DNA from: a virus | DNA length: 27,973 nt | Reading direction: 5' to 3' (one strand) | IMG/VR virus record: IMGVR_UViG_3300010885_032458 | Coordinates: 1 to 27,973 of that record | Part shown: positions 13,752-27,881 of the stretch, piece by piece | How positions within the stretch are numbered: position 1 is the first letter of the stretch | How the letters are laid out: each line of letters starts with the position of its first letter | Notes under the pieces: model-generated | The model's database searches: none | Told to the model about the DNA's origin: nothing | Seen by the model: the letters and a program-made list of their open reading frames with translations, nothing else | Position numbers and translations under genes: made by a program

Positions 13752-13752
13752 A

Positions 13753-13920: not shown

Positions 13921-13928
13921 AGTGTTCC

Positions 13929-14135: not shown

Positions 14136-14170
14136 ATCGAAAAACCTTTCTTTTTCTTTTCTATAGGAAT

Positions 14171-14199: not shown

Positions 14200-14305
14200 G
14201 CTCCAATCCAATCTGGAAACAAAGGGTTATATGCTAAGTGAAAACTATTTTAACCAGCCATATTAGCTACTTACGGCATACCTGGGATACGCAATTCTCG
14301 TATTA

Positions 14306-14737: not shown

Positions 14738-14755
14738 AGTAACCTCATAACCTTA

Positions 14756-14822: not shown

Positions 14823-14823
14823 A

Positions 14824-15021: not shown

Positions 15022-15022
15022 A

Positions 15023-15217
15023 TTACAGGATCCCTTCGTATTGTGTCTCCAGTTTCTCCAACTCTTTTCGAGCATCAACTAACTCGCCGTAGAGTTGATC
15101 GGCTTCATCGTACTTGCCCCAAAGGGAGCAATTATCCAGCTCGGCTGTAAGATATGTGATAGTGTCGTGGAGATCTCTAAGTTTCTCAATAATGTTTTCA
15201 ATGCTTTCGTGGCTCAT
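15023..15217 (-). CDS. Hypothetical coiled-coil protein, 64 residues
   Basis: MSHESIENIIEKLRDLHDTI, then a second charged helix (GELVDARKELEKLETQYEG). AAGGG and AAAGG precede the ATG. Similar layout to the gene that follows it; both could be subunits that pair with each other. No family recognised. Confidence 0.75.
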   Translation of the reverse strand: MSHESIENIIEKLRDLHDTITYLTAELDNCSLWGKYDEADQLYGELVDARKELEKLETQYEGIL

Positions 15218-15246
15218 AAAACCTTTCCCTTTTTAATTAAAACCCA

Positions 15247-15546
15247 TTAAGCCCAAGGTACAACAAGTCCACAGGTGTCGCGGACGATCTTTTTAATCAC
15301 ATCATGATCAACTCGGACCACATCAAACGTCTCACCTTTTTTGATAAGGTCTCCGATGTAGTGTGTAATGTGCTTAGAGGTTGTAACACTGAACTTTGTA
15401 GTGGTGACAAATAGTTCCGTGCCCATCTTAACTGCAACCGGAGTCGCATAAGACACAAGGATGTTTTTGTCATTAACCGTGACTTCCTTCAATTGCTTGC
15501 TTCCGAAGTTTCTGATTTTTGCTTGGAGACTTTTTTGAACTTGCAT
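15247..15546 (-). CDS. Conserved phage protein with TSKHI motif, 99 residues
   Basis: Basic N-terminus (MQVQKSLQAKIRNFGSKQLK), then VSYATPVAVKMGTELFVTTT and KFSVTTSKHITHYIGDLIKK. The pattern Y-x-TPV then T-x-KFSVTTSKHI is shared by a small protein family of unknown function common in phages. A consensus promoter lies upstream and AAAAGG stands before the ATG, so expression is probably strong and early. First gene of the operon that carries the ribozyme and RadC-like gene. Confidence 0.8.
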   Translation of the reverse strand: MQVQKSLQAKIRNFGSKQLKEVTVNDKNILVSYATPVAVKMGTELFVTTTKFSVTTSKHITHYIGDLIKKGETFDVVRVDHDVIKKIVRDTCGLVVPWA

Positions 15547-15578
15547 AATGTTTACCTTTTCTTATTCTCTATAGGATC

Positions 15579-15608
15579 ATTATAGCATACAATCCACGTG
15601 GATGTCAA
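15579..15608 (-). promoter_or_regulatory. Consensus sigma70-like promoter with a palindromic spacer
   Basis: -35 TTGACA (15603-15608), 18-base spacer, TGC-extended -10 TATAAT (15579-15584): a perfect consensus. The spacer contains the perfect 12-base palindrome ATCCACGTGGAT (15592-15603), which touches the -35 and looks like a repressor site. Drives 15247-15546 and probably the RadC operon. Confidence 0.9.
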
Positions 15609-15609
15609 C

Positions 15610-15705
15610 CTATTCTTCCAGATTTACCATAATCGTAAGTAACGTAAGTGGTGCAAATATCAGGGCTTTTATGAAGATGTAAACTATGAATATCTTTAAG
15701 ACCAT
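15610..15705 (-). CDS. Small hydrophobic peptide, 31 residues
   Basis: MVLKIFIVYIFIKALIFAPL, then TLLTIMVNLEE: one membrane span with an acidic end. Starts 16 bases after the stop of the gene at 15721-15996 and ends next to the -35 of the following promoter. No convincing ribosome binding site. Resembles in style the two membrane peptides at 10306-10544. Confidence 0.5.
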   Translation of the reverse strand: MVLKIFIVYIFIKALIFAPLTLLTIMVNLEE

Positions 15706-15720
15706 ACTGGAATCAACTAC

Positions 15721-15996
15721 TTAGAAGGTAACTTTATCTTTGCTTACGAATTCGATGTTATAGTCAGCCCCTGCATACGGAGCCAACGTTATTTGAGCGA
15801 GTCGGAACTTCTTCTCAGGGCAGTATACGTTAGCACCGTTCGGATTGTAGTCTAAACGAACGTGATATCCGAAATCACTCTTGTCCCACAGTGTGCCTGT
15901 GAAAGGCTGCCCTGCGTACGTTCCCTGTACACGAATCAAATAGGGATACTCTGCACTCTTACGTTCAAACTCAATTTCGATTTTCTTATTGTTCAT
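15721..15996 (-). CDS. Hypothetical protein, 91 residues, beta-rich, leaderless start
   Basis: MNNKKIEIEFERKSAEYPYL then beta-like segments (GQPFTGTLWDKSDFGYHVRL and RLAQITLAPYAGADYNIEFV). ATG 15996 sits exactly 6 bases after a TATAAT -10, so the mRNA should start at the start codon; there is no ribosome binding site. A longer frame to 16044 crosses the promoter and was rejected. Function unknown. Confidence 0.75.
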   Translation of the reverse strand: MNNKKIEIEFERKSAEYPYLIRVQGTYAGQPFTGTLWDKSDFGYHVRLDYNPNGANVYCPEKKFRLAQITLAPYAGADYNIEFVSKDKVTF

Positions 15997-16002
15997 GGGA
16001 TC

Positions 16003-16032
16003 ATTATAGCATGGCAAATTGGATAAACGCAA
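16003..16032 (-). promoter_or_regulatory. Sigma70-like promoter, leaderless type
   Basis: -35 TTGCGT (16027-16032), 18-base spacer, TGC-extended -10 TATAAT (16003-16008). The 15 bases covering the -10 are identical to those at 15574-15588 (GCTATAATGATCC core), so the two promoters look like copies of one module. Expected +1 is the A of the ATG at 15996. Confidence 0.8.
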
Positions 16033-16084
16033 CGAATATTCCAAAATAATGGAACCTACGAGAAATCAGTAACTTACGCATACG

Positions 16085-16129
16085 AAAAACCCCTAGTAAG
16101 CCTATGTAATTTTCACATCTCACTAGGGG
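16085..16129 (-). terminator. Intrinsic terminator after the 16161-16307 gene
   Basis: Minus strand: CCCCTAGTGAG pairs with CTTACTAGGGG (11 pairs, one G-U), with an inner ATGT/ACAT helix, followed by TTTTT. Sits 30 bases past the stop of the 48-residue gene and before the promoter of the next operon. Confidence 0.8.
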
Positions 16130-16160
16130 CTGCCGTGTGTTGATTATTACACTGTATTGT

Positions 16161-16307
16161 TTACCAGTGCATGGCTCGCTTCTGACCCTTGTTCCACATC
16201 TCTATACGGTGATGTCTCTTGCCCGTCTTAATGAAGCCTAGAACGTGGTCAAGCTCTGTGAAGATGTGTCCTATAGTCGATTCTGTAAGGAAGATAACGT
16301 AAACCAT
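16161..16307 (-). CDS. Hypothetical protein, 48 residues
   Basis: MVYVIFLTESTIGHIFTELD, then a basic C-terminus (GFIKTGKRHHRIEMWNKGQK). ATG 16307 was chosen because AAGGAG lies about 10 bases upstream; the more upstream ATG at 16352 overlaps the promoter. It forms a single-gene unit with its own promoter and terminator, which suggests a real, strongly expressed early gene of unknown role. Confidence 0.75.
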   Translation of the reverse strand: MVYVIFLTESTIGHIFTELDHVLGFIKTGKRHHRIEMWNKGQKRAMHW

Positions 16308-16483
16308 GTGTAAGAGTCTCCTTCTAAGAGGTTTTGCTATGAAGTGTAGCATACTGTACTAATGTGTCAACGATTATATGTGCACAATCATGCGGGGAAC
16401 TTGCATCACGTATAACAGCGTAGAATCGTCCTAGGCGAGTTCTAGCGTAAAGTGCTGTGTATCTGCAAGCGTCAAAACATGAA
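16308..16483. other. Divergent intergenic region
   Basis: Separates the leftward 48-residue gene from the rightward genes. Contains the leftward promoter at 16343-16370. No clear rightward -35/-10 pair could be found by eye, nor any RNA gene. Confidence 0.5.
16343..16370 (-). promoter_or_regulatory. Sigma70-like promoter for the 48-residue gene
   Basis: -35 TTGACA (16365-16370), 16-base spacer, TGC-extended -10 TACACT (16343-16348). Expected leader of about 30 bases, containing the AAGGAG ribosome binding site. Confidence 0.75.
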
Positions 16484-16666
16484 ATGCGACAGGCGAGCGT
16501 ATACCGTGCGATAAAAACAAATGCGTTCCATAAGAATGTTTCGCATCATCTCAAAAAACTTATTCCATTATTTTTGAGGTTTGTGCTTGAGTATTCCCCA
16601 TGGATAGTCGAAACTAGAAATATGAAGAGCAATCAAGCTCGACAATGTGAAACGGAGATAATATGA
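16484..16666 (+). CDS. Possible small basic protein, 60 residues
   Basis: Frame from ATG 16484: MRQASVYRAIKTNAFHKNVS, then HHLKKLIPLFLRFVLEYSPW. Its stop overlaps the AT-hook gene's ATG as ATGA, the usual junction here. Against it: no ribosome binding site and an odd composition. It may be just the leader of the AT-hook gene. Confidence 0.25.
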   Translation: MRQASVYRAIKTNAFHKNVSHHLKKLIPLFLRFVLEYSPWIVETRNMKSNQARQCETEII

Positions 16667-17130
16667 AGATTGATGATGTAAACTTTGTTGATGAGAATTC
16701 GAGTGTGCTTCATGACGATACACACCAAGCTCTGCCAGCTCAAGCAAAGTCGCGACGTGGGCGACCCAAGGGCTCAAAGAATCGTAAGAGTGTTTACATG
16801 CTTCCAGAAGAGGGATGGGACACTGAGGGTTCTATTGAAATGGTAGCCCCAACAGCAACAGCCGCACCTGTAGGGAAAGCTCGTAGTGCTGCACTTCACA
16901 GACGATGGCAGCGTGAGTGGATTCGTCCACAGTTTTCACTCACACGAAAAGATGCGTATGAGATCTTCTTTAAGTTTCTGCGTTCTGCTAAAGGCAAAGA
17001 AGCTCTCAAGAAGCTCATCACGAATGGCTCGCCTGGTGTTGGCAAGCTCAACGATGTGCAACTTGGCAAATATCTTGAGCAAACAAACTTGCTCTCACGA
17101 TATCCACATGAGGTTGTAATCAAGGGGTAA
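16663..17130 (+). CDS. AT-hook DNA-binding protein, 155 residues
   Basis: Residues 31-42, RRGRPKGSKNRK, form a textbook AT-hook (core RGRP flanked by basic residues) that binds the minor groove of AT-rich DNA. Before it is an acidic stretch, after it a Pro/Ala linker, then a basic-aromatic region (HRRWQREWIRPQFSLTRKDA) and a helical C-terminus. GGAGATAAT precedes the ATG. It is one of two well-supported rightward genes in the window and ends at a terminator. Likely role: binding host or phage DNA, possibly transcriptional; this is inference. Confidence 0.85.
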   Translation: MKIDDVNFVDENSSVLHDDTHQALPAQAKSRRGRPKGSKNRKSVYMLPEEGWDTEGSIEMVAPTATAAPVGKARSAALHRRWQREWIRPQFSLTRKDAYEIFFKFLRSAKGKEALKKLITNGSPGVGKLNDVQLGKYLEQTNLLSRYPHEVVIKG

Positions 17131-17142
17131 TGTATGTCTAAG

Positions 17143-17182
17143 ATTGTGCACCCTCGTTAGTGGGGGTGCTACAATTCTTTTT
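17143..17182 (+). terminator. Intrinsic terminator after the AT-hook gene
   Basis: ATTGTGCACCC pairs with GGGTGC-T-ACAAT (11 pairs, one bulge), followed by TCTTTTT. It lies 12 bases after the AT-hook stop and just before the next rightward gene, so that gene may be partly protected from read-through. Confidence 0.75.
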
Positions 17183-17199
17183 AATTGTGTGAGGTTGTT

Positions 17200-17490
17200 A
17201 TGGCAAAGATAAACAAGAAACAAGCAAAGGTTATGGTTGAGTCTCTTGCGTCTGAGTTTTTATCTCTTGATCTTGAGAGACAGCGCATCGAGAGGGAAGC
17301 CCGGCAGCTAAAGAAAAGACTCGATGAACTAAAACAAGGACTGCAAGGTGTGGTAGGAGTTGCTGAAGAATTAGATGTGCCATACGTTGCTCGAATTGGT
17401 CGTTACTACATCACACAAATTAAAAAGCACCGTGATGTTGATTCATACTCATACGAGTTCATTGACTTCAAGGTGGCTGATGTGCAATAA
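17200..17490 (+). CDS. Hypothetical coiled-coil protein, 96 residues
   Basis: MAKINKKQAKVMVESLASEF, then a very charged helix (LERQRIEREARQLKKRLDEL) that should form a coiled coil, and a small beta-like end (YVARIGRYYITQIKKHRDV). GAGG is 6 bases before ATG 17200. Follows the AT-hook gene on the same strand across a terminator. Function unknown. Confidence 0.8.
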   Translation: MAKINKKQAKVMVESLASEFLSLDLERQRIEREARQLKKRLDELKQGLQGVVGVAEELDVPYVARIGRYYITQIKKHRDVDSYSYEFIDFKVADVQ

Positions 17491-17503
17491 TTGTTATAAC
17501 AGA

Positions 17504-17863
17504 TTAACACTCAAGCAAAACAAGACCACGTTGGGACGAGTAGTAATGAGAAACCAATTCGTAGCAAGCCTTCTCAAACGTCTTAAAGAAACCTTTGTAT
17601 TGAGCCCAAGCTGGCTGCACTATGTAGCCCTTGCTCAGAGAACAGGGCGAGATATATCCAATACAGCGACTTTCAAAGTAGATGAGCTGTGTTTGAGACC
17701 CGTCTCCAGCTCGGCGAATATAGTAGCTTTGATACTCTTGCATAGTGTGTCTGAGTATGTTAGAAAAAAGACCCTTGTGTTTCATCCATGCTGAGGTTAC
17801 ATGGAAGCCACTTACTCCAAACTCGATGCAAGGGTCCCCACCGAGGTGATGAATGGGAGGCAT
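17504..17863 (-). CDS. Hypothetical protein with an internal repeat, 119 residues
   Basis: Two similar segments of about 28 residues: VTSAWMKHKGLFSNILRHTM (near residue 22) and VQPAWAQYKGFFKTFEKACY (near residue 84), both followed by an E-x-x-S-x-Y motif. Common pattern AW-x3-KG-x-F. Such internal repetition argues that this strand, not the opposing open frame, is the coding one. Start uncertain: ATG 17863 or a GTG 9 bases earlier, with GGAG upstream. It ends convergently with 17200-17490. Confidence 0.65.
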   Translation of the reverse strand: MPPIHHLGGDPCIEFGVSGFHVTSAWMKHKGLFSNILRHTMQEYQSYYIRRAGDGSQTQLIYFESRCIGYISPCSLSKGYIVQPAWAQYKGFFKTFEKACYELVSHYYSSQRGLVLLEC

Positions 17864-17911
17864 TCGATCCACGTCTCCAGATTCATCAGCGCATTATATA
17901 CGGGCTTTGTA

Positions 17912-18181
17912 TTATGCTACACTGGCTTCTGTCGAAGTGTTGACTGCGCTAGAATCAACAAGTGGTGCGAGGGTATACTGACCACGCCCTGCTCTGAATA
18001 GCTTGTTATTGAACAACCAACGAACGTCAGCTGTTCCCTTTCCGGCTGCTGTGGCGTGAGCAAGGATCTGCTTACGCGTGACTACAAGACCATGTGCTTC
18101 AACGATACTCTGCACGAGTGCTTGACGCTCTGCTGGATTACGTCCCCAAAGTCCTGCTGTATTTGTATTAAGGGCTACCAT
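17912..18181 (-). CDS. Hypothetical protein, 89 residues, possible winged-helix
   Basis: Begins MVALNTNTAGLWGRNPAERQ; ATG 18181 is preferred over 18187 and 18193 because GGAG then sits 6 bases upstream. Residues 21-60 (ALVQSIVEAHGLVVTRKQIL, then AHATAAGKGTADVRWLFNNK) look like helix-turn-helix followed by a wing, so DNA binding is possible. A Ser/Thr tail closes the protein. Confidence 0.7.
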   Translation of the reverse strand: MVALNTNTAGLWGRNPAERQALVQSIVEAHGLVVTRKQILAHATAAGKGTADVRWLFNNKLFRAGRGQYTLAPLVDSSAVNTSTEASVA

Positions 18182-18204
18182 TTTCATCTCCATTACACTA
18201 ACAA

Positions 18205-18597
18205 TTAAACATTAACTGGCAAATCACTGTCATCGGCAACAGGCGGCAACACTGTCACTGAGTCTCCTCTCTTGGTACATGCTTTCGCAAATAAGATTGG
18301 GTCTGGGTAACGTTCTGACACATCACCAACACCACTGATCATTACTTTGAGGGAGATCTTGTCGCCTTTGCGTACGTTGTCAAACTTACTAGAGAACGTA
18401 CCGAAGTAGATAGCGCCAAGCTCTGGATGCTTCACGACTATCTTACCAATTGATGCAACTGTGTAACGGCCAACTGGGCGCGGCTCCCACTTGATAGAGA
18501 CTACATCTGCTGCGTCGAGTATGAGCGTAACGGTACGACCATTCTTAACGTGGTCGATTACTTCTTGGCGATTTAATGAATTTGGAAGTTTATTCAT
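18205..18597 (-). CDS. Hypothetical protein, 130 residues
   Basis: Begins MNKLPNSLNRQEVIDHVKNG, then a beta-rich body (GRTVTLILDAADVVSIKWEP, YTVASIGKIVVKHPELGAIY) and DKISLKVMISGVGDVSERYP near the end. ATG 18597 is 8 bases after a TATAGT -10, so the leader is about two bases and there is no ribosome binding site; the in-frame TTG at 18603 lies upstream of the expected start point. No family recognised. Confidence 0.75.
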   Translation of the reverse strand: MNKLPNSLNRQEVIDHVKNGRTVTLILDAADVVSIKWEPRPVGRYTVASIGKIVVKHPELGAIYFGTFSSKFDNVRKGDKISLKVMISGVGDVSERYPDPILFAKACTKRGDSVTVLPPVADDSDLPVNV

Positions 18598-18605
18598 ATA
18601 CAACT

Positions 18606-18635
18606 ACTATAGCATGATATGGATGTGGCTGTCAA
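18606..18635 (-). promoter_or_regulatory. Sigma70-like promoter, near-leaderless type
   Basis: -35 TTGACA (18630-18635), 18-base spacer, TGC-extended -10 TATAGT (18606-18611). The ATG at 18597 is 8 bases beyond the -10. Confidence 0.8.
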
Positions 18636-18691
18636 TTACTATTCCCTTTAACGCCATTTTTAGCGAGGAATAATCATCTCACGATTTTGGA

Positions 18692-18934
18692 TTAACGTAT
18701 ATATGGTCCAGAAACGCCAGTTCCCTGTGCGTTGACTTTGTAAATTGCGATCTTCCCGTTGCGAAACGTCACGATCACTTGGTTACCATTCAGAACGGCT
18801 GTAGTAGCACCAGTTCCAAATGTAGCAACTGGGGACCCTATGTCCATCTTGCGTAGCTCAACCCTGTTGTTACGAACGACAACATACGAGGGGGCTGATT
18901 CTGACTCGCAAATGTATTGCTTAAATGATTTCAT
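18692..18934 (-). CDS. Probable head-internal protein with capsid-targeting-like N-terminus, 80 residues
   Basis: The start MKSFKQYICES resembles the T4 capsid-targeting peptide (MKTYQEFI-E type) that directs internal proteins into the head and is cut by the prohead protease after Glu. The rest is a compact beta-rich domain (YVVVRNNRVELRKMDIGSPV, then VLNGNQVIVTFRNGKIAIYK). AGGAG precedes the ATG and a TCTAAATA late-like element lies just before that. So it is probably made late, packed in the head and injected. Assignment is by N-terminal pattern only. Confidence 0.75.
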   Translation of the reverse strand: MKSFKQYICESESAPSYVVVRNNRVELRKMDIGSPVATFGTGATTAVLNGNQVIVTFRNGKIAIYKVNAQGTGVSGPYIR

Positions 18935-18942
18935 ACGTCTCC

Positions 18943-18950
18943 TATTTAGA
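18943..18950 (-). promoter_or_regulatory. Weak candidate late promoter element
   Basis: Minus strand TCTAAATA, two mismatches from TATAAATA, 8 bases before the ATG at 18934 and partly merged with the ribosome binding site region. Supported only by the similar element before the other two capsid-targeting-like genes. Confidence 0.3.
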
Positions 18951-18975
18951 ACCTTTTACAACCTCAGACACAACC

Positions 18976-19194
18976 TTACTTACTACTGTTCACTATGCTT
19001 ACAACATACTCGACCATGTAGGCAAGATACATTTTGTCATTTTCCTGCCCTAAGTCTCTGTTGATGCGACTAATGTTCGGCTCAATAATGACACGACAGA
19101 TCTCTTTCGCCACTTTGAGCTGTTGAGCCAGCTTGATCTCATCAGCCGTTAGAAAGTCATAGAGTGTGATCGATGTTTTTGGTTTGCGTTCCAT
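18976..19194 (-). CDS. Hypothetical protein, 72 residues
   Basis: MERKPKTSITLYDFLTADEI, then helices (LAQQLKVAKEICRVIIEPNI and MYLAYMVEYVVSIVNSSK). AAGGAG stands before ATG 19194; the in-frame extension to 19260 enters the previous gene and was rejected. Downstream member of the operon beginning at 19757. Function unknown. Confidence 0.75.
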   Translation of the reverse strand: MERKPKTSITLYDFLTADEIKLAQQLKVAKEICRVIIEPNISRINRDLGQENDKMYLAYMVEYVVSIVNSSK

Positions 19195-20509: not shown

Positions 20510-20800
20510 CTAAGTATCTGTTTTTATAGCTGCTTTGGAACTGAAATTTCTCGTTTGCTGCTCTTGTTCTGTTCTGTCTAAGAATATAATGAGTGCTATA
20601 TTGTACCCATAGCCAGCGATGGCTGTTCTGTACTTGTACTTTGATTCTATATGATTCTGCACGTCTCGTACTTTCTGTCTCTGTGTATGTGGGAATCTGA
20701 ATACTACATCAACTCTCGTGGCATGGGGCGTCAGTGTATACGTGAGCTTGTTGTTCTCTTGTGCGTTATCGAGTTCTGCTTTTAATTTTGGATTGATCAT
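20510..20800 (-). CDS. Small-paralogue family member, 96 residues
   Basis: One of at least ten related proteins here. N-terminal helix MINPKLKAELDNAQENNKL, strand VDVVFRFPHT, helix VRDVQNHIESKYKYRTAIAG, then a hydrophobic strand (NIALIIFLD). It shares VQ-x-HIE-x-x-Y-x-YRT with its neighbour at 20797-21042, its closest relative. Start at ATG 20800 overlaps that gene's stop as ATGA. Function of the family unknown. Confidence 0.75.
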   Translation of the reverse strand: MINPKLKAELDNAQENNKLTYTLTPHATRVDVVFRFPHTQRQKVRDVQNHIESKYKYRTAIAGYGYNIALIIFLDRTEQEQQTRNFSSKAAIKTDT

Positions 20801-21042
20801 GTGTTCTTCTTGAGGGGTTGTTCTGGATAGACCCACATGACTGGACCTGTAATGCCTTCTATGACTTCTGTTCTATAGTTATATGCTGCTTCGATGTGCT
20901 GCTGCACTTTATGTATCTGGTCGAGGGTTGTGCTTTTGTTTGAAAATCTGATGTAGGCGTGGTCGTCACTGCTCACAAGGTATTTGAGAAACTGCTCGTC
21001 TTCTGCGTGTTTGAGTTCTTTGAGTAGTTGGAAGCTGATCAT
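20797..21042 (-). CDS. Small-paralogue family member, 81 residues
   Basis: MISFQLLKELKHAEDEQFLK is a clear family N-terminus. Then AYIRFSNKSTTLDQIHKVQQ, HIEAAYNYRTEVIEG and a final hydrophobic strand. Overlaps the genes on both sides by ATGA (21039-21042 and 20797-20800), making a translationally coupled trio with 21039-21332. Confidence 0.8.
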   Translation of the reverse strand: MISFQLLKELKHAEDEQFLKYLVSSDDHAYIRFSNKSTTLDQIHKVQQHIEAAYNYRTEVIEGITGPVMWVYPEQPLKKNT

Positions 21043-21332
21043 TGTGGTTTTGCTTTCTGCAATTCTTGTATCTCTTTCTTTGAGAGTGTGCGATTGAAAT
21101 ATGGATAGTATTGTGCTCGCTGTCTGTTGATGAGCTTTCTGAGATGCCCGACGATTTTGAGAGCATCTGGATCTCGTGCTAATGTGTCGAGGACGAGACG
21201 TTGATTGTGCACGTACGTGTGTCTATCGAATCGTGTGTTGCCTATTTTGATTGTGTCTCTGGGCGAGCCTGAGTACACGAGTGTGCGGAGCTTGTTGTGG
21301 TTGATGAATGGAAATTCATTTTTAAGGTTCAT
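21039..21332 (-). CDS. Hypothetical protein, 97 residues
   Basis: MNLKNEFPFINHNKLRTLVY, then a Asp/Arg/His-rich middle (RFDRHTYVHNQRLVLDTLAR) and a basic C-terminus (INRQRAQYYPYFNRTLSKKE). Not a family member. Promoter with TGC-extended TATATT lies 34 bases upstream. No ribosome binding site visible. First gene of the coupled trio; role unknown. Confidence 0.75.
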   Translation of the reverse strand: MNLKNEFPFINHNKLRTLVYSGSPRDTIKIGNTRFDRHTYVHNQRLVLDTLARDPDALKIVGHLRKLINRQRAQYYPYFNRTLSKKEIQELQKAKPQ

Positions 21333-21365
21333 ATTGGTTTTTGTCGAAGTTGGGCAACGATATCA

Positions 21366-21395
21366 AATATAGCACATGGCAAATGTATGCGTAAA
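21366..21395 (-). promoter_or_regulatory. Sigma70-like promoter for 21039-21332 and the two paralogues behind it
   Basis: -10 TATATT (21366-21371) with TGC extension, 18-base spacer, -35 TTTACG (21390-21395). Leader of about 27 bases. Confidence 0.65.
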
Positions 21396-21403
21396 CATTT
21401 TTA

Positions 21404-21673
21404 TTACGCTTCCCAAAAAATTAGCCACATAAGTTTTAACAATTGTTTTCGTGCTTCCATACTCATAGGTGTGTTCGATGCGTATGATGCTACTAAGAGT
21501 GCATTAAAATGTGCAAACAGCTGATTAACTGCCATGAAGCCTTCAGGCGTTTGTAGTAGCAAGTTGTGAACAGTGTCATGTAATAGCCACGGGGGTACGA
21601 AATAAGTATCATCTACTGTGTGCATGATTCCAATATGTGAGATGTATTTGTCGTATGGTCTTCCACGAATCAT
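21404..21673 (-). CDS. Hypothetical protein, 89 residues
   Basis: MIRGRPYDKYISHIGIMHTV, then FVPPWLLHDTVHNLLLQTPE and a long hydrophobic-aromatic C-terminal helix (EARKQLLKLMWLIFWEA). AGGGAG precedes the ATG by about 10 bases. Not a paralogue family member. The hydrophobic end may touch a membrane or a partner. Unknown. Confidence 0.7.
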   Translation of the reverse strand: MIRGRPYDKYISHIGIMHTVDDTYFVPPWLLHDTVHNLLLQTPEGFMAVNQLFAHFNALLVASYASNTPMSMEARKQLLKLMWLIFWEA

Positions 21674-21749
21674 ATAGCGTTGCTCCCTTTTTTGGTGACA
21701 TGCGTATCACACACCAGCAACGTAGGTTAGCACCGCGATCATAGTAGTG

Positions 21750-21974
21750 TTAGTTAAATGGCTTTTGTCGAATGTATATGATAAGTGATCCTGGAGTGTA
21801 TGCTTCCACATCATAGTGTTCTCTGATGTATCGTGTGAGTGCTGTTCTGCGTTTTCGTGAGTCTATTGAAAACACGATGTCTGCTGTTACTTTGTTTATA
21901 ACATAAACTTGTATGAGGTCTTGCTTCACTGCTGGCTGAAGGTCGTCTATCAGTTTTTGAAATGAGTCTTTCAT
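21750..21974 (-). CDS. Small-paralogue family member, 74 residues (divergent)
   Basis: MKDSFQKLIDDLQPAVKQDL is a family-like helix, followed by the strand ADIVFSID, helix TALTRYIREHYDVEAYTPGS and a last strand LIIYIRQK. It is the shortest and most divergent member. Starts inside the stop of the RHH/HTH gene (ATGA overlap), so the regulator and this protein are made together. Confidence 0.7.
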   Translation of the reverse strand: MKDSFQKLIDDLQPAVKQDLIQVYVINKVTADIVFSIDSRKRRTALTRYIREHYDVEAYTPGSLIIYIRQKPFN

Positions 21975-22345
21975 AAGTCTGTATAGTGCAATTCGTCGAT
22001 GATGAGTCTTCTGATGTGTGACACGGTGAAATGTATGTCGTAGTCTTGTGCAAGTGTGCGTTGAATGTGTGTATAGCTCATGCCAATGCTTGTCATGTAG
22101 AGCATGTGTTTGAGCACTTCACGTTCTTCGGGAGAGTTACGTCCAAAGCGTTTTGGCTTTGTCGAGTTTTTAAGTGTTTGTGGTTTTACTGTGAAATCTA
22201 CTTCTTTGCCGTCGAGCATGTTGAGGCAGTATGAAACACACCTCTTGATGAATGCTGCTTCTGTTTCATCGTAGTGTGATGCTGCACGTTTTACTGATTG
22301 CTTTACGGTCTTGTCGAGCGTGAGTGTGTATCGTGATTGTTTCAT
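21971..22345 (-). CDS. Putative transcription regulator, RHH-like plus C-terminal HTH, 124 residues
   Basis: N-terminus SRYTLTLDKTVKQSVKRAAS then DETEAAFIKRCVSYCLNMLD fits a ribbon-helix-helix fold (strand, helix, turn, helix). The C-terminal SPEEREVLKHMLYMTSIGMS and THIQRTLAQDYDIHFTVSHI look like a helix-turn-helix. A basic linker (NSTKPKRFGRNS) joins them. Likely binds DNA as a dimer; candidate operators are the palindromes near early promoters. AGAGAG upstream is a weak ribosome binding site. Confidence 0.7.
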   Translation of the reverse strand: MKQSRYTLTLDKTVKQSVKRAASHYDETEAAFIKRCVSYCLNMLDGKEVDFTVKPQTLKNSTKPKRFGRNSPEEREVLKHMLYMTSIGMSYTHIQRTLAQDYDIHFTVSHIRRLIIDELHYTDL

Positions 22346-22379
22346 GGATTTTATCTCTCTTTACTGTATAAACACTGTG

Positions 22380-22667
22380 TCAGTCGCATATTGTAAACGT
22401 AATGAATCGTCTTGAGTTGTTATCGCAGGTTTGACTGTCGCCAAAGTATTTCAGTGCACTAAAATAGTTATCGTCTCTGATTTGTGCGCCGTACTTGTGG
22501 ATGAGAATGTCTTTTAATTTTTGGATTTGATCATCGCTCGTCGTCGGCAACAAAACAACATCAATTTTCGCCGTTCGTCTATTGTAATCAAAACTATAAT
22601 TCCAGTGCTCAACAAGCCGCCGTTCTTCTGCATGATTGAGCTGAGTTAAAATTTTGTTGAGATTCAT
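22380..22667 (-). CDS. Small-paralogue family member, 95 residues
   Basis: MNLNKILTQLNHAEERRLVE (helix), KIDVVLLPTTSDDQIQKLKD, ILIHKYGAQIRD, then an insert and a last strand RFITFTICD. The LTQLNHAEERRLVE segment is one of the clearest copies of the family helix. No ribosome binding site; a 12-codon leader frame precedes it. Confidence 0.75.
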   Translation of the reverse strand: MNLNKILTQLNHAEERRLVEHWNYSFDYNRRTAKIDVVLLPTTSDDQIQKLKDILIHKYGAQIRDDNYFSALKYFGDSQTCDNNSRRFITFTICD

Positions 22668-22688
22668 ACGATGTGTTGTTATAGCTCT

Positions 22689-22727
22689 TCAATGGTCGCA
22701 ACAATTAAATCTGAGTGAATCGAGCAT
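22689..22727 (-). CDS. Possible leaderless 12-residue leader peptide
   Basis: MLDSLRFNCCDH, with its ATG 7 bases after the TAGAGT -10 of the promoter at 22735-22764, and its stop 21 bases before the next ATG. Too short to be sure; the arrangement matches the leaderless promoters elsewhere. Confidence 0.25.
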   Translation of the reverse strand: MLDSLRFNCCDH

Positions 22728-22734
22728 ATAATAT

Positions 22735-22764
22735 ACTCTAGCATACAGCGGATGGGTCTGTCAA
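22735..22764 (-). promoter_or_regulatory. Sigma70-like promoter for the 22380-22667 paralogue
   Basis: -35 TTGACA (22759-22764), 18-base spacer, TGC-extended -10 TAGAGT (22735-22740). Just downstream of the 60-residue gene's stop. Confidence 0.7.
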
Positions 22765-22795
22765 TACTTTTGGACAATCAGTGAGAAATGGAGAT

Positions 22796-22978
22796 TTAAT
22801 CGTCTTGGTCAAGAGTGTCTAATCCAAGAACTTTTGCTGCTTCTGCACATAGTTCTCGACCACGTTCTTGTGTGGTGTCTGCACTGTTTGTGGACTCTGC
22901 GTGAATTTCTGCGATTCGTCGCCATGTGCATCCGATGTCTCTGAGTGCTCTGATGAGTGTTGCTTCGAGTCTTGTCAT
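22796..22978 (-). CDS. Hypothetical protein, 60 residues, possible HTH
   Basis: MTRLEATLIRALRDIGCTWR, then RIAEIHAESTNSADTTQERG and an acidic end. The LIRALRDIGCTWRRIAE part looks like helix-turn-helix, which would suit a small regulator. Overlaps the preceding paralogue by ATGA. Role unknown. Confidence 0.7.
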   Translation of the reverse strand: MTRLEATLIRALRDIGCTWRRIAEIHAESTNSADTTQERGRELCAEAAKVLGLDTLDQDD

Positions 22979-23211
22979 GTGAGTGAGTGTCGATGTCTGT
23001 GGTACACGGAGAGCGATTTTTTACTTATCGACAAGTATGTATTGTAGTCATACACGAGTCTGATGTAAGCTGCGAGATTTTCTTTTTGGATAATCGTGAT
23101 GTTTGGATCCTTGAATCGTATCGTCGTCACGTAATTGCTCTGAATCGTAACTTTGATCAAGTGTTGCTCTTCTGCTTTGCTGAGTTGTCGTATAAGTTTT
23201 GTTGCAATCAT
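22975..23211 (-). CDS. Small-paralogue family member, 78 residues
   Basis: MIATKLIRQLSKAEEQHLIK (textbook family helix), TTIRFKDPNITIIQKENL, AAYIRLVYDYNTYLSIS, then a short basic end. Its start region, ATAGTAGCACTATGAT, is identical over 16 bases to that of 23498-23827, so the translation start was copied with a gene or exchanged. No Shine-Dalgarno. Confidence 0.8.
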   Translation of the reverse strand: MIATKLIRQLSKAEEQHLIKVTIQSNYVTTIRFKDPNITIIQKENLAAYIRLVYDYNTYLSISKKSLSVYHRHRHSLT

Positions 23212-23234
23212 AGTGCTACTATCTTGTTGTGTAC

Positions 23235-23501
23235 TTATCCCAAATCTTGGAACACGAACAACACGTTTGATGTTTCTGTCGAATTTGTCGTAAGTGGGCG
23301 CACTTTACACTGATATTCTTTTTCAATCTGAGCTGTGAGTGCAATTCGTGTATTGTACGGCGTTGTCTCGTTCAGTGTGATGAAGAGTGCGGTGATAGCG
23401 TTCTTCATTTTGTGCTTCTCTTTTTGTGGATATATTTCAACTCGTTTGATGAGCTTTTGAGCTTCTGCGATTTTGAGTTGTTCGATCAGTTTTTCAATCA
23501 T
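23235..23501 (-). CDS. Small-paralogue family member, 88 residues
   Basis: MIEKLIEQLKIAEAQKLIKR, the clearest family helix; then a basic insert, ALFITLNETTPYNTRIALTA, QIEKEYQCKVRPL and a last strand NVLFVFQDL. Overlaps the stop of 23498-23827 as ATGA, so it is translated after that gene. Confidence 0.8.
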   Translation of the reverse strand: MIEKLIEQLKIAEAQKLIKRVEIYPQKEKHKMKNAITALFITLNETTPYNTRIALTAQIEKEYQCKVRPLTTNSTETSNVLFVFQDLG

Positions 23502-23827
23502 GCAACGTAGAAGTTTAGCTCATACTTGCCAGACTTTTCCATTCTGTAAATTTGAATGTGGAGCATCTTTCTTTGTGGTTTGCCGTTCTTGTACAATTCA
23601 AGATGAAACTCGTCTGTCTTCCCTACACCGAGGTTTTTGTATGCAGTTGTTACCTTGTTAAACTCTTCTTCATCACTAATTTCATAGCCGTCTTTTTTCG
23701 TGTGATCGAGAGCTGTCTGTACAGCACTATGGAGTGTGTCATGATACAACTTATAGCGTGGCGCTTCGTTGAGCTGCTTACGGGCTGTTGTTGCGAGATG
23801 CTGCTTGAAAAGTTTCATGTCTATCAT
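23498..23827 (-). CDS. Conserved phage protein with capsid-targeting-like N-terminus, 109 residues
   Basis: N-terminus MIDMKLFKQHLATTARKQLN resembles a capsid-targeting peptide. The body YHDTLHSAVQTALDHTKKDG, then DEEEFNKVTTAYKNLGVGKT, ELYKNGKPQRKMLHIQIYRM and GKYELNFYV resembles a small protein I recall from many T4-like phages (pattern YHD-x-SAV-ALDHA, GKT, KNGKPQ). Function unknown but likely packed in virions. CATAAATA lies 8 bases before the ATG. Start may instead be the Met at 23818. Confidence 0.75.
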   Translation of the reverse strand: MIDMKLFKQHLATTARKQLNEAPRYKLYHDTLHSAVQTALDHTKKDGYEISDEEEFNKVTTAYKNLGVGKTDEFHLELYKNGKPQRKMLHIQIYRMEKSGKYELNFYVA

Positions 23828-23835
23828 AGTGCTAC

Positions 23836-23843
23836 TATTTATG
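23836..23843 (-). promoter_or_regulatory. Candidate late promoter for 23498-23827
   Basis: Minus strand CATAAATAG, one mismatch from TATAAATA, 8 bases before the ATG at 23827. It overlaps the stop codon of the paralogue at 23839-24138. Gives this capsid-targeting-like gene separate late control inside an early region. Confidence 0.45.
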
Positions 23844-24138
23844 ACTGCGGCACTTTCATCGTAATCATATCATCTGTTGGCATCTTGATCAACGTGCATC
23901 CATACTTGTCATGTAAAAGATTCATGAGAGCTTGAATCGTCTTTGAGGGTGTTGTCTTATGAAAATAAATCGAGAGATCGTAGTCTGTTGGCTTTTTGCT
24001 GCCGTTTCGCACGAGGTCTTGCGTCTCCGTGTAGTATAGAATGTTTGAGTCTGTGACGAGTCGAGCGTTCCACGACTTGATAAGGTTCTGTTCTGTTGCT
24101 GTTGTAAGCTGTCGAGCGATGTGTTCGATTGTTTTCAT
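23839..24138 (-). CDS. Small-paralogue family member, 99 residues
   Basis: MKTIEHIARQLTTATEQNLI K is the family helix, with HLK-like basic start. Then an insert, YDLSIYFHKTTPSKTIQALM, NLLHDKYGCTLIKMPTD and a final strand MITMKVPQS. Longest family member. ATG 24138 is 7 bases after a TATACT -10, so the leader is one base or none. Confidence 0.75.
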   Translation of the reverse strand: MKTIEHIARQLTTATEQNLIKSWNARLVTDSNILYYTETQDLVRNGSKKPTDYDLSIYFHKTTPSKTIQALMNLLHDKYGCTLIKMPTDDMITMKVPQS

Positions 24139-24145
24139 ATGAATC

Positions 24146-24175
24146 AGTATACACGATTCTGGAGCTTTCTGTCAA
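24146..24175 (-). promoter_or_regulatory. Sigma70-like promoter, near-leaderless type
   Basis: -35 TTGACA (24170-24175), 18-base spacer, -10 TATACT (24146-24151). ATG at 24138 follows after 7 bases. Drives the paralogue and probably the genes to its left. Confidence 0.8.
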
Positions 24176-24230
24176 TAGTGAAATTTGTTGGAAAGCTAAA
24201 TGTGCAGAAATGCTAAGAATCCAATTTGGA

Positions 24231-25424
24231 TTACGTTCGGCTTCTGTATGCCTCAAGTGCTTTCTTGATGATCTTTGCTGCTTGCTGTAAATCATCACAC
24301 GATAACACAAACGCAATTCGTACATAATCAGTGTGCTGTGTTGAGTGAAAGAAGAACGAGTGTGCTGGCGACACAAAAACAGTTTCGTCATTAAGGGCAA
24401 ACTCTTGCAACATGAAACGTGCAAAGTCTGCTGAGTTTTCTACTGGCAATTTTGCGAGCACGTAAAATCCACCTTCAGGTGTCTGAAACTCTACGTCTAA
24501 AATCTCTTTGAGCCCTGCGACTAAAACGTTTCGTCGCTGTTCATACTCTTGGACAGCATCGAGTAAATAACTGTCACTGATGTGCTTGAGCATATGCGCT
24601 GCTGCGACTTGTTCAACTGTTGGTGCTGATACTCGTGTGCTGGCAAAATTTGTGGCTGCATCGAGTAGTTCTTTGTTCCATGTGAGAATGCAACCAATGC
24701 GGGCGCCACATAAGCTGTAACGTTTTGAAATACTATCAACAACGACAACGTGCTTATTTTCTGGCGCAATCTGAAACACACACGATGGCTTTCTATCATC
24801 AAACACAAACTCACGATAGACTTCATCGACGATTAACACGATGTCGTGTTTTTCACATACTGAGATGAGTAGTTTCATTTCGTCGTGTGTATATACAGTG
24901 CCAGATGGATTGTTTGGGTTGCAAATGAGTATTGCTTTCGTGCGTTGTGTGATGAGCTTGTCGAGTTGTGTTTCTACATCGTGTGGCAAATGGAAGTTGT
25001 CTGCTAGTGAACACTCAACTGGAACAAGTTTCGCACCAGTAATAGTGGCGAAGCCAGCATAGTTTGCATACGATGGCGAAAACACTATAATTTCATCATC
25101 AACATCACAACACGTATTGAAGATGAGTGTGAGTGCTTCACTTGAGCCAGATGTGATGAGTAGCTGCTCATGTGTGACGTTCAGTGTGTATTGTGTGTTG
25201 AGTGTTGTTGACCACTCTTCAAGAAGAGCTTTGTTGCCTGATGCTGCATCGTATGCGAGCACTGGTGAGGTGAATGTGCGCAAGCCATCAAAAAATTCTT
25301 GTGGTGAATGAAGATCAGGCTGACCAATGTTAAGCCCGTAGACACGAGAGATCGTCGTCTTAGGTGGGACTAAGTTTCGTATCGGCGAAACTGATGTTGA
25401 TTGCGCACGTTTTGATAACTTCAT
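24231..25424 (-). CDS. PLP-dependent aminotransferase, class I/II fold
   Basis: 397 residues, a normal full length. It should move an amino group between an amino acid and a 2-oxo acid using pyridoxal phosphate. Key residues read directly: NPNNPSG (169-175, N172 contacts the cofactor), D200 and Y203 in VDEVYREF, catalytic K234 in SISK, R242 in GARIG, and R369 in YVRIAF for substrate carboxylate. N-terminal LNIGQPD and the ITSGSSEALTLIF segment also fit. Substrate unknown; aspartate or aromatic amino acids are the commonest for this fold. Aminotransferases are rare in phage genomes. CATAAATA lies 6 bases before the ATG, so it may be a late, leaderless mRNA. Confidence 0.9.
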   Translation of the reverse strand: MKLSKRAQSTSVSPIRNLVPPKTTISRVYGLNIGQPDLHSPQEFFDGLRTFTSPVLAYDAASGNKALLEEWSTTLNTQYTLNVTHEQLLITSGSSEALTLIFNTCCDVDDEIIVFSPSYANYAGFATITGAKLVPVECSLADNFHLPHDVETQLDKLITQRTKAILICNPNNPSGTVYTHDEMKLLISVCEKHDIVLIVDEVYREFVFDDRKPSCVFQIAPENKHVVVVDSISKRYSLCGARIGCILTWNKELLDAATNFASTRVSAPTVEQVAAAHMLKHISDSYLLDAVQEYEQRRNVLVAGLKEILDVEFQTPEGGFYVLAKLPVENSADFARFMLQEFALNDETVFVSPAHSFFFHSTQHTDYVRIAFVLSCDDLQQAAKIIKKALEAYRSRT

Positions 25425-25430
25425 CGAACA

Positions 25431-25438
25431 TATTTATG
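25431..25438 (-). promoter_or_regulatory. Candidate late promoter for the aminotransferase
   Basis: Minus strand CATAAATA, one mismatch from TATAAATA, with 6 bases to the ATG at 25424. It overlaps the stop codon of 25434-25946. The gene has no ribosome binding site. Confidence 0.4.
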
Positions 25439-25946
25439 TCCACAAGAAACCACGAACTTTCAGTACCTTTTGCATCATCTTCGTGTCTTCGTCGTAGTAT
25501 TTGTTTTCGAGCTTTTCTGCCTTTAAAATCATCGGCATGAGGAGCGTTTCGTCTCGCTGCTCGACTGGCAGTTCAAAAAATGCGTTAAGACCCGCTACTT
25601 CGTCTGGATTTGGTCGTGCGGATCGAAGATCTTTCCACCATATGTACACATCGCGAATGACTTCAGGTCCGTTTGGTACTGTAAGGCCTACGCTAGTGTA
25701 GCACGATTCCATACTGTTCAAGTGCTGTAAACCACGCTCACGAGATCTGATTAAGTTGTCTGAGCGAAGCCACCGAGGTAGTTTTAACCATAACCAATCT
25801 TTGAGTGTGTATGGTGCGTCCACCTCCATGAACGAACATTCAATTTCAACAAAATCGACAACGATCTGCATGACTGCATGAAGAAGAATTGAATCAGAAT
25901 CAAAATGGTCTTTTTTGTTGAGTGTTTGTATGTTTAACTTTTTCAT
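25434..25946 (-). CDS. Conserved phage-type protein, 170 residues, function unknown
   Basis: MKKLNIQTLNKKDHFDSDSI, then a helix (LLHAVMQIVVDFVEIECSFM), KDWLWLKLPRWLRSDNLIRS, ESCYTSVGLTVPNGPEVIRD and VYIWWKDLRSARPNPDEVAG. Similar tryptophan-rich proteins occur in other large phages without assigned role. Start at ATG 25946 chosen because a longer frame would run into tRNA-Pro. No ribosome binding site; the transcript's 5' end may come from tRNA-Pro processing. Confidence 0.7.
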   Translation of the reverse strand: MKKLNIQTLNKKDHFDSDSILLHAVMQIVVDFVEIECSFMEVDAPYTLKDWLWLKLPRWLRSDNLIRSRERGLQHLNSMESCYTSVGLTVPNGPEVIRDVYIWWKDLRSARPNPDEVAGLNAFFELPVEQRDETLLMPMILKAEKLENKYYDEDTKMMQKVLKVRGFLWT

Positions 25947-25959
25947 ATGAATATCAATG

Positions 25960-26034
25960 TCGGGGTAGCTGGATTTGAACCAACGACCTCCTGCTCCCAA
26001 AACAGGCGCTCTAGCCGGGCTGAGCTACACCCCG
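25960..26034 (-). tRNA. tRNA-Pro (UGG)
   Basis: Minus strand acceptor CGGGGTG with TACCCCG (one G-U); D-arm TAGCTCAGCCCGGCTAGAGC; anticodon stem CCTGT/GCAGG with loop TTTGGGA (TGG, Pro); T-arm GTTGG-TTCAAAT-CCAGC. First base C and discriminator A as usual for tRNA-Pro. Confidence 0.95.
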
Positions 26035-26043
26035 ATGAAAAAA

Positions 26044-26119
26044 TGGCGGAACCGATGGGACTCGAACCCACGACCTCTCCCGTGACAGGGGAGCGTTCTA
26101 ACCACTGAACTACGATTCC
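26044..26119 (-). tRNA. tRNA-Asp (GUC) with encoded CCA
   Basis: Minus strand acceptor GGAATCG with CGGTTCC, discriminator G; anticodon stem CTCCC/GGGAG with loop CTGTCAC (GTC, Asp); T-arm CGTGG-GTTCGAGT-CCCAT (one mismatch-type pair). The CCA end is encoded (26044-26046), unlike the other three tRNAs here. Confidence 0.95.
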
Positions 26120-26182
26120 GTAATAATCACTATATCAAAACTATATGGCGATGTCAATTATAAAATTTTGTGGATATTCTTA

Positions 26183-27070
26183 TTAGTATATATCCACTTT
26201 GTTTCTCAAATTTTTTGTGAGAAGATTTTCACGTGCCATACGAGTAAACATGAGCTTGCGAAACTTTGCGCCATATCGTCTGTTCAATCCATCAAGTGAT
26301 GGCATATACGTCATAATGTCTGCCCATGTGAGCTTATCATACTTTTTGTCACCAATTCTACGTTTCAATTCTTGAATTTGATTCACAAACGGTGTGATCT
26401 CAAGTGGCGTCAAGTAAATATCCTCTTCACCTTTTGTGACGTGCTTTTTGTATGATGCATCAACTGCGTTGCGTGTTGATACTATGTCACCATCTGCTTG
26501 CTTGATTTTTTGAAGATCGGCGTTGAATCGTGAAAACTTTTTATTCAAATGTTGATTGTGTAGCGAGTCATCAAGCCAATGTGTCAACTCATGGCGAATC
26601 GTAGACAATAAACGAATATCTGATGTTTCGTTCGTGAGCATGGCAAGCTGATGGTGTGGTATGTGATTCAGTCGATATGCCATAGCTTCCCACACACTCA
26701 ATGGTAAACCAATCACAATTTCTTTTGTGAGCATATTGTATGAATTGCTGGCGCCGTGTGGCAGTATAGCATACACTTTAATTTTAATTGGATTGATTTT
26801 GTGTGCTTGTTGTGCTGCGGCTGAAGATAGTTGTCCACTACTAAACGTTTTGATCACTTTGTGATTGACTGAGCCGCCGACTACGTGGCGCGACACAACT
26901 TCTTTGAACTGTTTTTCTAGCTCTTCAACACTAAGAACCCCATGCTTTTTCCAAACTGCTTGTAAATCTTTGTATAGCCGCTTCAAAGGAGCAAAAACCA
27001 TGTCGATGTCTTTTTTATCAACATCAATGAGCTTTTCGACTAAAAATTCTTTAAAAAGTTTAATTGCCAT
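26183..27070 (-). CDS. HExxH zinc metalloprotease with capsid-targeting-like N-terminus
   Basis: 295 residues. H160-E-L-T-H164 in STIRHELTHWLDD is a standard zinc-protease helix; a likely third ligand is the Glu in YLTPLEITPFVN about 60 residues on (gluzincin style). Before it, IKVYAILPHGA and KEIVIGLPLSVW suggest the strands of a peptidase fold. N-terminus MAIKLFKEFLVEKLIDVD resembles a capsid-targeting peptide, and GATAAATA lies 7 bases upstream. The simplest reading is a protease loaded in the head and injected to act on host proteins, or one acting in virion maturation. Substrate unknown. No ribosome binding site. Confidence 0.8.
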   Translation of the reverse strand: MAIKLFKEFLVEKLIDVDKKDIDMVFAPLKRLYKDLQAVWKKHGVLSVEELEKQFKEVVSRHVVGGSVNHKVIKTFSSGQLSSAAAQQAHKINPIKIKVYAILPHGASNSYNMLTKEIVIGLPLSVWEAMAYRLNHIPHHQLAMLTNETSDIRLLSTIRHELTHWLDDSLHNQHLNKKFSRFNADLQKIKQADGDIVSTRNAVDASYKKHVTKGEEDIYLTPLEITPFVNQIQELKRRIGDKKYDKLTWADIMTYMPSLDGLNRRYGAKFRKLMFTRMARENLLTKNLRNKVDIY

Positions 27071-27076
27071 ATAGTT

Positions 27077-27346
27077 TTATTTATCAAGCGTGATGTTTAA
27101 TACATAATGATAGTGTCGTGATGCATAATGTCGATGGCATTCAATACGCATTTTATGGATTGACTGATAATTCTTTTTAATTGTCTCAACAACTTTATCA
27201 ATTGTGATCGCATCAGTCTCTTTGTGGAACGTGATTGTCACATGTGGGCAATTTACACTGAGAGACAAAATGAGATTGCGGTCATGCGCAACAACAAGCT
27301 GCTCAAGAAACAATTCGACAGGTTTTCTACCATGCTGCGTTGTCAT
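27077..27346 (-). CDS. Small-paralogue family member, 89 residues
   Basis: RKPVELFLEQLVVAHDRNLI family helix, HVTITFHKETDAITIDKVVE, TIKKNYQSIHKMRIE and a final strand HYVLNITLDK. N-terminus a bit longer than others. Overlaps the previous paralogue by ATGA. Its stop lies next to the metalloprotease start, but coupling there is loose. Confidence 0.8.
   Translation of the reverse strand: MTTQHGRKPVELFLEQLVVAHDRNLILSLSVNCPHVTITFHKETDAITIDKVVETIKKNYQSIHKMRIECHRHYASRHYHYVLNITLDK
27078..27085 (-). promoter_or_regulatory. Candidate late promoter for the metalloprotease
   Basis: Minus strand GATAAATA, one mismatch from TATAAATA, with 7 bases before the ATG at 27070. It lies over the last codons of the paralogue at 27077-27346, so coding constraint (D-K-stop) may explain part of the match. 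Confidence 0.35.
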
Positions 27347-27603
27347 GCGCCTTGATACGTTTGTTTGACTTCCATGTACAGTGTAAGATGTCTTTTGTGA
27401 CTTGGTGATATGTACTCACCAATCTGCATATATTGCATATCGTAGTTCTTATCGATGTAATCTTTGATTTTTGATACTGTGTCGAATGGTGTATACTTTT
27501 GAAATACAATTTCTACTCTTGGAAACTGTATGATGCGAGCGTGAATTAGTTGCGACTCGTCTGCTTGTTTTAGCTCTTTGTACAATTGTTCAATGGGTTT
27601 CAT
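27343..27603 (-). CDS. Small-paralogue family member, 86 residues
   Basis: MKPIEQLYKELKQADESQLI family helix, RVEIVFQKYTPFDTVSKIKD, YIDKNYDMQYMQIGEY and a last strand HLTLYMEVKQ. Coupled by ATGA on both sides: middle of a three-gene paralogue run. Confidence 0.8.
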   Translation of the reverse strand: MKPIEQLYKELKQADESQLIHARIIQFPRVEIVFQKYTPFDTVSKIKDYIDKNYDMQYMQIGEYISPSHKRHLTLYMEVKQTYQGA

Positions 27604-27881
27604 GGTTTGCTTGGGGCTTTTATTTTCATCTCAACTTTCATGGCGTTCGTATCCGCGTTTGATTCGTCGTTTACAACTGATAGCCATGCTTCTGTGTCTT
27701 CATATGCTCGTTCGATGTGTTTTCGTAGTTGGATGATTGACATGGAACTTGTTCCAATTGGAAACACAACTCGAATGCTCAAAAACCCAGGTGCGTGATG
27801 ACGAGTACACACCGCACTGTCGATAAGACCTTTTGCGTGTGCTGTTTGTAATTGGAGCAATAGGTGTTCTGTTGTCTTCAT
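27600..27881 (-). CDS. Small-paralogue family member, 93 residues
   Basis: MKTTEHLLLQLQTAHAKGLI family helix, LSIRVVFPIGTSSMSIIQLR, KHIERAYEDTEAWLSVV, then a basic beta-like tail (MKVEMKIKAPSKP). ATG 27881 has no ribosome binding site. First paralogue of the three-gene run at the window's right end. Confidence 0.75.
   Translation of the reverse strand: MKTTEHLLLQLQTAHAKGLIDSAVCTRHHAPGFLSIRVVFPIGTSSMSIIQLRKHIERAYEDTEAWLSVVNDESNADTNAMKVEMKIKAPSKP

Follow-up and report, generated by a model that had tools for sequence, protein, structure and literature searches.

The window analyzed here is the whole of IMG/VR virus record IMGVR_UViG_3300010885_032458, 27,973 bases of DNA. Toward its right end, between positions 20510 and 27881, it encodes an array of ten small proteins that were found by sequence comparison to be one paralogous family. 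The family has clear membership, one predicted order of secondary structure elements, a single locus per record, four-nucleotide gene overlaps, colinear orthologues in related phages and conservation almost entirely confined to the core. We tentatively favor a reading in which this is an old, lineage-specific family with a permuted fold, whose members would be early non-enzymatic binders for host takeover or counter-defence.

All ten open reading frames (ORFs) are present on the minus strand with the left ends listed in Table 1. Hidden Markov models built from nine members each gave the tenth a score of 26.5–46.4 bits, while the best of 1,000 shuffles per member reached 8.9–13.9 bits and 14 other local proteins scored at most 5.4 bits against the family profile. 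Since every member beats all of its shuffles against the profile of the other nine, the ten proteins belong to one family. An initial annotation had proposed this array and had named profile scores no better than those of shuffled sequences as a result that would speak against it; the scores were well above the shuffles, and the array is confirmed. The reading frames are all intact and encode single-domain chains of 74–99 amino acids (aa), the family overall spanning about 70–105 aa. The most likely start of member 1 is the ATG at 20800, which gives a four-nucleotide overlap with member 2, and not the GTG at 20836. Seven four-nucleotide ATGA overlaps involve members, and three of them link member to member (1 to 2, 8 to 9 and 9 to 10), which makes the proposed ATGA joining more precise. 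The motif given as I-x6-Y should instead read [Y/H]-I-x3-Y: the cited examples HIEAAY, YIDKNY and QIEKEY are all I-x3-Y, and alignment columns 111 and 115 agree.

Relatives were found through the surroundings of the array. The neighboring ORF at 25434 as query led to an 87.6-kb record with the same surroundings (G038), and alignments of the zincin-like protein and of this ORF led to further relatives. Iterated profiles identified 16 members in G038, 13 in G039 and 8 in G045, which are related IMG/VR phage records and fragments of uncultured phages. Members were confined to a single locus in each of these records, giving a total of 47 with the ten of the window. The E-values of the iterated search are inflated, as the hits sit inside the profile; a profile of the ten window members alone served as independent test, and with it 34 of the 37 members from other phages exceeded the best of 1,850 shuffles. 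Mean column identity was 28% for the ten window members and 16% for all 47. Two alignments used for structure and searches (A5 and A7) hold one divergent row below the inclusion threshold, L098:4305-4535, and A7 omits one counted member, L147:14397. This divergent protein and its orthologue in G039 (L144:5470) resemble further diverged members, as does the C-terminal portion of L098:3731/L144:4913; all were left uncounted.

Outside these phages the family profile had no credible match in T4, HTVC008M, Mosig, Melnitz-3, DLP_6, phiN3, SRB7757, Mel-JY01, PVA8 or F86. Cr30 and S-8S56 were rejected as carriers, each giving single weak matches across stop codons only, which were not counted. No match was obtained by tblastn with six members against 50,697 phage records. 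The 37 records related via gp6, many of which are too short or stop before the locus, also gave no match. The ten-member alignment contains no stretch conserved enough for a direct profile search of viral contigs, and scans with single members and with the zincin-like protein found nothing. In Pfam, PHROGs, NCBIfam and PADLOC no match was common to several members, and the single-member hits reached E=0.0012 at best. Judged by these sequence searches the family belongs to no catalogued family, as had been proposed. Two related small proteins of another T4-like phage (G004, L087, minus-strand offsets 4486 and 5980) have a helix-strand-strand-helix look. They are a possible distant relative; their scores of 6.8 and 5.5 bits to the family profile are below significance and they were not counted.

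AlphaFold2 predicted the element order alpha-beta-beta-alpha-beta-beta for member 2 (predicted local distance difference test (pLDDT) 93.0, predicted template modelling score (pTM) 0.78, 27-row alignment) as well as for member 9 (pLDDT 93.3, pTM 0.80, 47 rows). The predicted fold starts near residue 4 and fills the chain, helix 1 included. The common plan proposed earlier therefore holds as a shared predicted fold, whereas its helix-strand-helix-strand order does not, since two strands follow each helix. Because of this element order, the fold is predicted to be a circularly permuted ferredoxin-like (alpha-beta-beta)2; this permutation and its dimerisation have been described (PMC6233222, PMC3815138). 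The best PDB matches of member 9 include two circular S6 permutants, a Rep-domain permutant and the EpsM and PulM domains, none of them significant, while those of the other model include SUI1 and ribosomal proteins. The ferredoxin-like domains of GspL/GspM (EpsM, PulM) and PilN/PilO are of similar size, and EpsM matched member 9 with a Foldseek template modelling (TM) score of 0.54/0.60, which at E=0.17 is not significant. GspL/GspM domains, which have the same fold class, form homo- and heterodimers (PMC3815138, PMC6233222). They and PilN/PilO are periplasmic domains of membrane proteins, whereas the array members are free single-domain proteins, and a search of the family profile against PDB sequences gave no GspL/GspM/PilN/PilO match. 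The element order also partly matches the LAGLIDADG homing endonuclease core (I-SceI, TM 0.45) and SUI1/eIF1 (eIF1, TM 0.46); these scores are weak, and the members have neither conserved acidic catalytic residues nor a third helix. LAGLIDADG endonucleases were rejected on the missing acidic residues and the TM of 0.45.

The columns conserved across the 47 members are nearly all hydrophobic core (L, L, A, L-I, I-x-F, L, I, Y, L-x-I); among polar positions, it is chiefly an E/Q on helix 1 that is kept. Because almost only buried hydrophobic positions are conserved, the members are probably binding proteins on a common scaffold and not enzymes. Net charge varies among them from -7 to +7 and no basic position is conserved; DNA mimicry was rejected on this range of charge.

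The family appears to be old. Nine orthologue pairs between G038 and G039 occur in identical order (chance of perfect order 2.8e-6), and in a tree, made from a short alignment with many forks unresolved, members of the same phage do not cluster together (26 label changes versus 25.3 when shuffled). A recent burst within one genome was rejected on the latter ground. Member 8 groups with G038_10978/G039_10942, which likewise adjoin the zincin-like gene. From the colinear pairs and the tree, the paralogues predate the split of these phages; each has been kept separately, as the nine pairs are colinear, with turnover at greater distance. The window is further off, with few members having reciprocal partners, at about 35% identity, a pattern that fits gain and loss within an old family. 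The G038-G039 member orthologues are 37–57% identical (median 48.8%) versus 49.1% for 26 other reciprocal pairs, a rough comparison as these pairs include some antisense ORFs. Of the earlier suggestion that the expansion is old or fast-evolving, the first part is thus supported and the second, as worded, is not. Identity in the member orthologues was 0.55–0.71 at codon positions 1 and 2 and 0.27–0.47 at position 3. Third positions are near saturation, and the ratio of nonsynonymous to synonymous substitution rates (dN/dS) was rejected as a test of positive selection since dS is mostly saturated.

Across the four arrays, 12 sigma70-like promoters that match the consensus at 10 or more of 12 positions lie on the coding strand and one on the opposite strand, in line with the early-type promoters proposed initially. 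The sole exact T4-type late TATAAATA of the window is at 5076, upstream of gp5, and none occurs within the array. Early expression of the members is suggested because of this strand bias and the location of the late motif outside the array. Over the whole records of the four phages, 15 of 85 promoters end 5–9 nucleotides before the ATG of an ORF of at least 50 aa, where 1.6 were expected (P about 5e-11), the commonest spacing being exactly 6 nucleotides; the pattern was first noticed in the arrays and then counted over the whole records. Counted likewise in parts of T4, HTVC008M and Cr30, such promoters numbered 0, 0 and 1. Leaderless early mRNAs are predicted for this clade because the -10 boxes end a few nucleotides before start codons. 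Promoters with a -10 box ending 6–9 nucleotides before the start codon, and no Shine-Dalgarno sequence, were seen at 24175-24146 and 18635-18606 of the window, at L098 17337-17365 and at L147 17610-17582.

The window is, by its gene content, DNA of a T4-like myophage, because its gp6 (2-1804) is 37% identical to that of Pelagibacter phage HTVC008M over 97% of the length and is followed by gp25 and then gp5. Megablast of bases 1-19000 against the 50,697 phage records found no relative. In HTVC008M, gp53 and the next structural gene are close to gp5, while in this clade tens of kilobases of small genes lie between gp53/hub and gp5, and the array is the first part of them. The region that houses the array is hyperplastic, and the clade is one of uncultured T4-like myophages. 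Like the hyperplastic regions of other T4-like phages, e.g., cyanophage g15-g18, it is a lineage-specific insertion between conserved structural modules (PMC2984593). It differs from g15-g18 in its place between gp53/hub and gp5, and in that one paralogous family makes up a large share of the inserted genes. A role toward the host is suggested because the array lies in such a region, hyperplastic regions being thought to serve host adaptation (PMC2984593).

Under the reading that we tentatively favor, host-type promoters would drive the members early in infection, in part through leaderless mRNAs. The proteins would be binders without enzymatic activity that share a scaffold, and each paralogue would have acquired a separate host target, for takeover or counter-defence. 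Binding may involve homo- or heterodimers, as in GspL/GspM with the same fold. Several points weigh against this interpretation. No target is known for any member, and the stable retention of colinear members at the identity of other genes is not what a short-term arms race would produce. The promoters were called from consensus matches only. The models of members 2 and 9 are not independent, as their alignments overlap; the strand order was taken from the fold matches; and the structure search gave no match at E<0.001 for either model.

The main alternative, which we consider possible but doubtful, is that the members are subunits of one hetero-oligomeric assembly in which coupled neighbors pair as GspL and GspM do. 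The colinear retention of nine paralogues, the ATGA overlaps joining members 1-2 and 8-9-10 and the dimerisation of the same fold class in both forms agree with this. On the other hand, the number of members varies from 10 to 16, 13 and 8 between records (which are fragments), most window members lack a clear orthologue and many members are single genes amid unrelated ones. A rather unlikely elaboration would combine pairing with host binding: an undescribed system with an evolvable scaffold of permuted ferredoxin-like fold in 8–16 diverged, individually retained copies per genome, whose combinatorial early binders, made from leaderless host-type promoters, would pair mutually and with many host targets.

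We regard a role of the members as small proteins that bind nucleic acid or modulate transcription, e.g., as middle/late gene regulators or RNA binders, as unlikely. RNA binding is frequent among ferredoxin-like and RRM-type sheets, the best fold matches include the S6 and Rep-domain permutants and, for the other model, SUI1 and ribosomal proteins, and regulators sit in the array. Against this stand the range of net charge, the lack of a conserved basic position and the weakness of the fold matches.

It is improbable that the members are internal head proteins injected with the DNA, as are T4 IPI-IPIII. The likeness is that T4 IPI*, an inhibitor of 76 residues with a compact alpha/beta structure, has a conserved capsid-targeting sequence (PMC3012670), and that genes beside the array seem to encode tagged internal proteins with LxE sites. 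The N-terminal MAIKLFKEFLVE of the zincin-like protein resembles such a targeting and LxE cleavage tag. However, no N-terminal tag is common to the 47 members, and LxE within the first 25 residues occurs in 21 of 47 versus 17.9 in shuffles, which is no enrichment; capsid-tagged internal proteins were rejected on these grounds. Moreover, helix 1 belongs to the predicted fold, the array has no exact late promoter motif, and the fold is shared here whereas the bodies of IPI-IPIII are diverse. A tag of the type MKxFxxFLxE or MKxFxxYLxE opens several proteins (window 26183-27070, the zincin-like protein, and 18692-18934; L098 15473, 16276 and 10115; L101 about 18858) and resembles the T4 capsid-targeting sequence with LxE cleavage. 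In G039, six ORFs share the N-terminus MDINLFRKSLASKQ (five in tandem at L144 14989-16729 and one at L145 8048-8440), mostly followed by an LxE-like site and then by apparently unrelated bodies. MDINLFRKSLASKQ is likely a tag for capsid targeting that several internal head proteins have in common; one of these ORFs gave no tblastn match in the 50,697 phage records.

A reading in which the array merely results from repeated duplication and drift, and most copies have little function, is very improbable: tandem arrangement and low paralogue identity would fit, but none of the ten frames is broken, the 47 members retain the hydrophobic core and codon positions 1 and 2 are far better conserved than position 3.

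The array is interspersed with other genes (Table 1). Among its conserved neighbors is the gene of the zincin-like protein, which has distant matches in phages of Microcystis and Vibrio; the others encode aminotransferases of classes I/II and III, a Zeta-toxin-like P-loop protein, an HNH-type endonuclease, a ribbon-helix-helix/helix-turn-helix (RHH/HTH) regulator and a 60-aa HTH-like protein. An RHH/HTH regulator had been placed among the members, and the G045 orthologue of ORF 21971 bears this out by matching RHH, NikA and DUF6290 models. Pyridoxal phosphate-dependent aminotransferases of classes I/II and III occur at 24231-25424 of the window, L098 5333-6610 and L144 6541-7818, within the array region and with 56–79% identity between related phages. 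Copies of the 60-aa HTH-like protein were found at L098 17139-17312 and L147 17610-17780; it is 81–83% identical between phages that share mostly 35–58% identity in their other genes. This protein had no match in Pfam or the phage collection and no relative in a scan of genome contigs; it is a candidate regulator of the array. A small protein of 93 aa at 7729-8010 of the window is likewise unusually well conserved, with 80–85% identity in G039 and G045, and matches nothing in Pfam at E<0.05. The window has four tRNA genes, for Thr, Glu, Pro and Asp, at 8960-9036, 12026-12101, 25959-26034 and 26044-26119; the Pro-Asp pair falls within the array, immediately downstream of a strong sigma70-like promoter (26157-26129).

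Table 1. Array members, neighboring genes and promoters in the window. Bit scores are leave-one-out profile score versus best shuffle.
Feature	Position	Strand	Observation
Member 1, 96 aa from ATG at 20800	20510..20800	-	26.5 vs 9.6 bits
Member 2, 81 aa	20797..21042	-	46.4 vs 11.2 bits; modelled with AlphaFold2
Member 3, 74 aa	21750..21974	-	28.4 vs 10.8 bits
RHH/HTH regulator, ATGA-coupled to member 3	21971..22345	-	G045 orthologue matches DUF6290, NikA-like, RHH_1, HTH_32
Member 4, 95 aa	22380..22667	-	30.1 vs 12.6 bits
Sigma70-like promoter TTGACA-18-TAGAGT	22735..22764	-	about 68 nt before member 4
60-aa HTH-like protein	22796..22978	-	81–83% between phages, among best conserved array genes
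Member 5, 78 aa	22975..23211	-	29.6 vs 8.9 bits
Member 6, 88 aa	23235..23501	-	34.0 vs 11.4 bits
Non-member ORF, N-terminal tag MKLFKQHLATTARKQLNE	23498..23827	-	G045 orthologue 57% identical; tag like G039 MDINLFRKSLASKQxxLxE
Member 7, 99 aa	23839..24138	-	41.6 vs 11.5 bits
Sigma70-like promoter TTGACA-18-TATACT	24146..24175	-	ends 7 nt before member 7 ATG (24138); predicted leaderless
Class I/II aminotransferase inside array	24231..25424	-	Pfam PF00155 E=1.4e-56; 56–58% identical to G038 and G039 copies
Conserved array neighbor	25434..25946	-	48% identical in G038
Zincin-like protein (HELTHW), N-terminal MAIKLFKEFLVE	26183..27070	-	reciprocal match 46.9% to G038, 38.9% to G039
Member 8, 89 aa	27077..27346	-	32.9 vs 13.9 bits
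Member 9, 86 aa	27343..27603	-	45.7 vs 11.8 bits; ATGA overlap with members 10 and 8; modelled with AlphaFold2
Member 10, 93 aa	27600..27881	-	27.1 vs 10.1 bits; also recovered in a de novo profile search

Early genes of T4-like phages are mostly orphans. Here, one predicted fold accounts for a whole block of orphan, probably early genes, and the expansion behind such a block can be old and colinear rather than the passing product of an arms race. The family can now be recognized by its profile, which makes dozens of natural variants on one scaffold available for host-target or anti-defence screening, and the predicted leaderless-promoter pattern offers a testable rule for gene starts in this clade.

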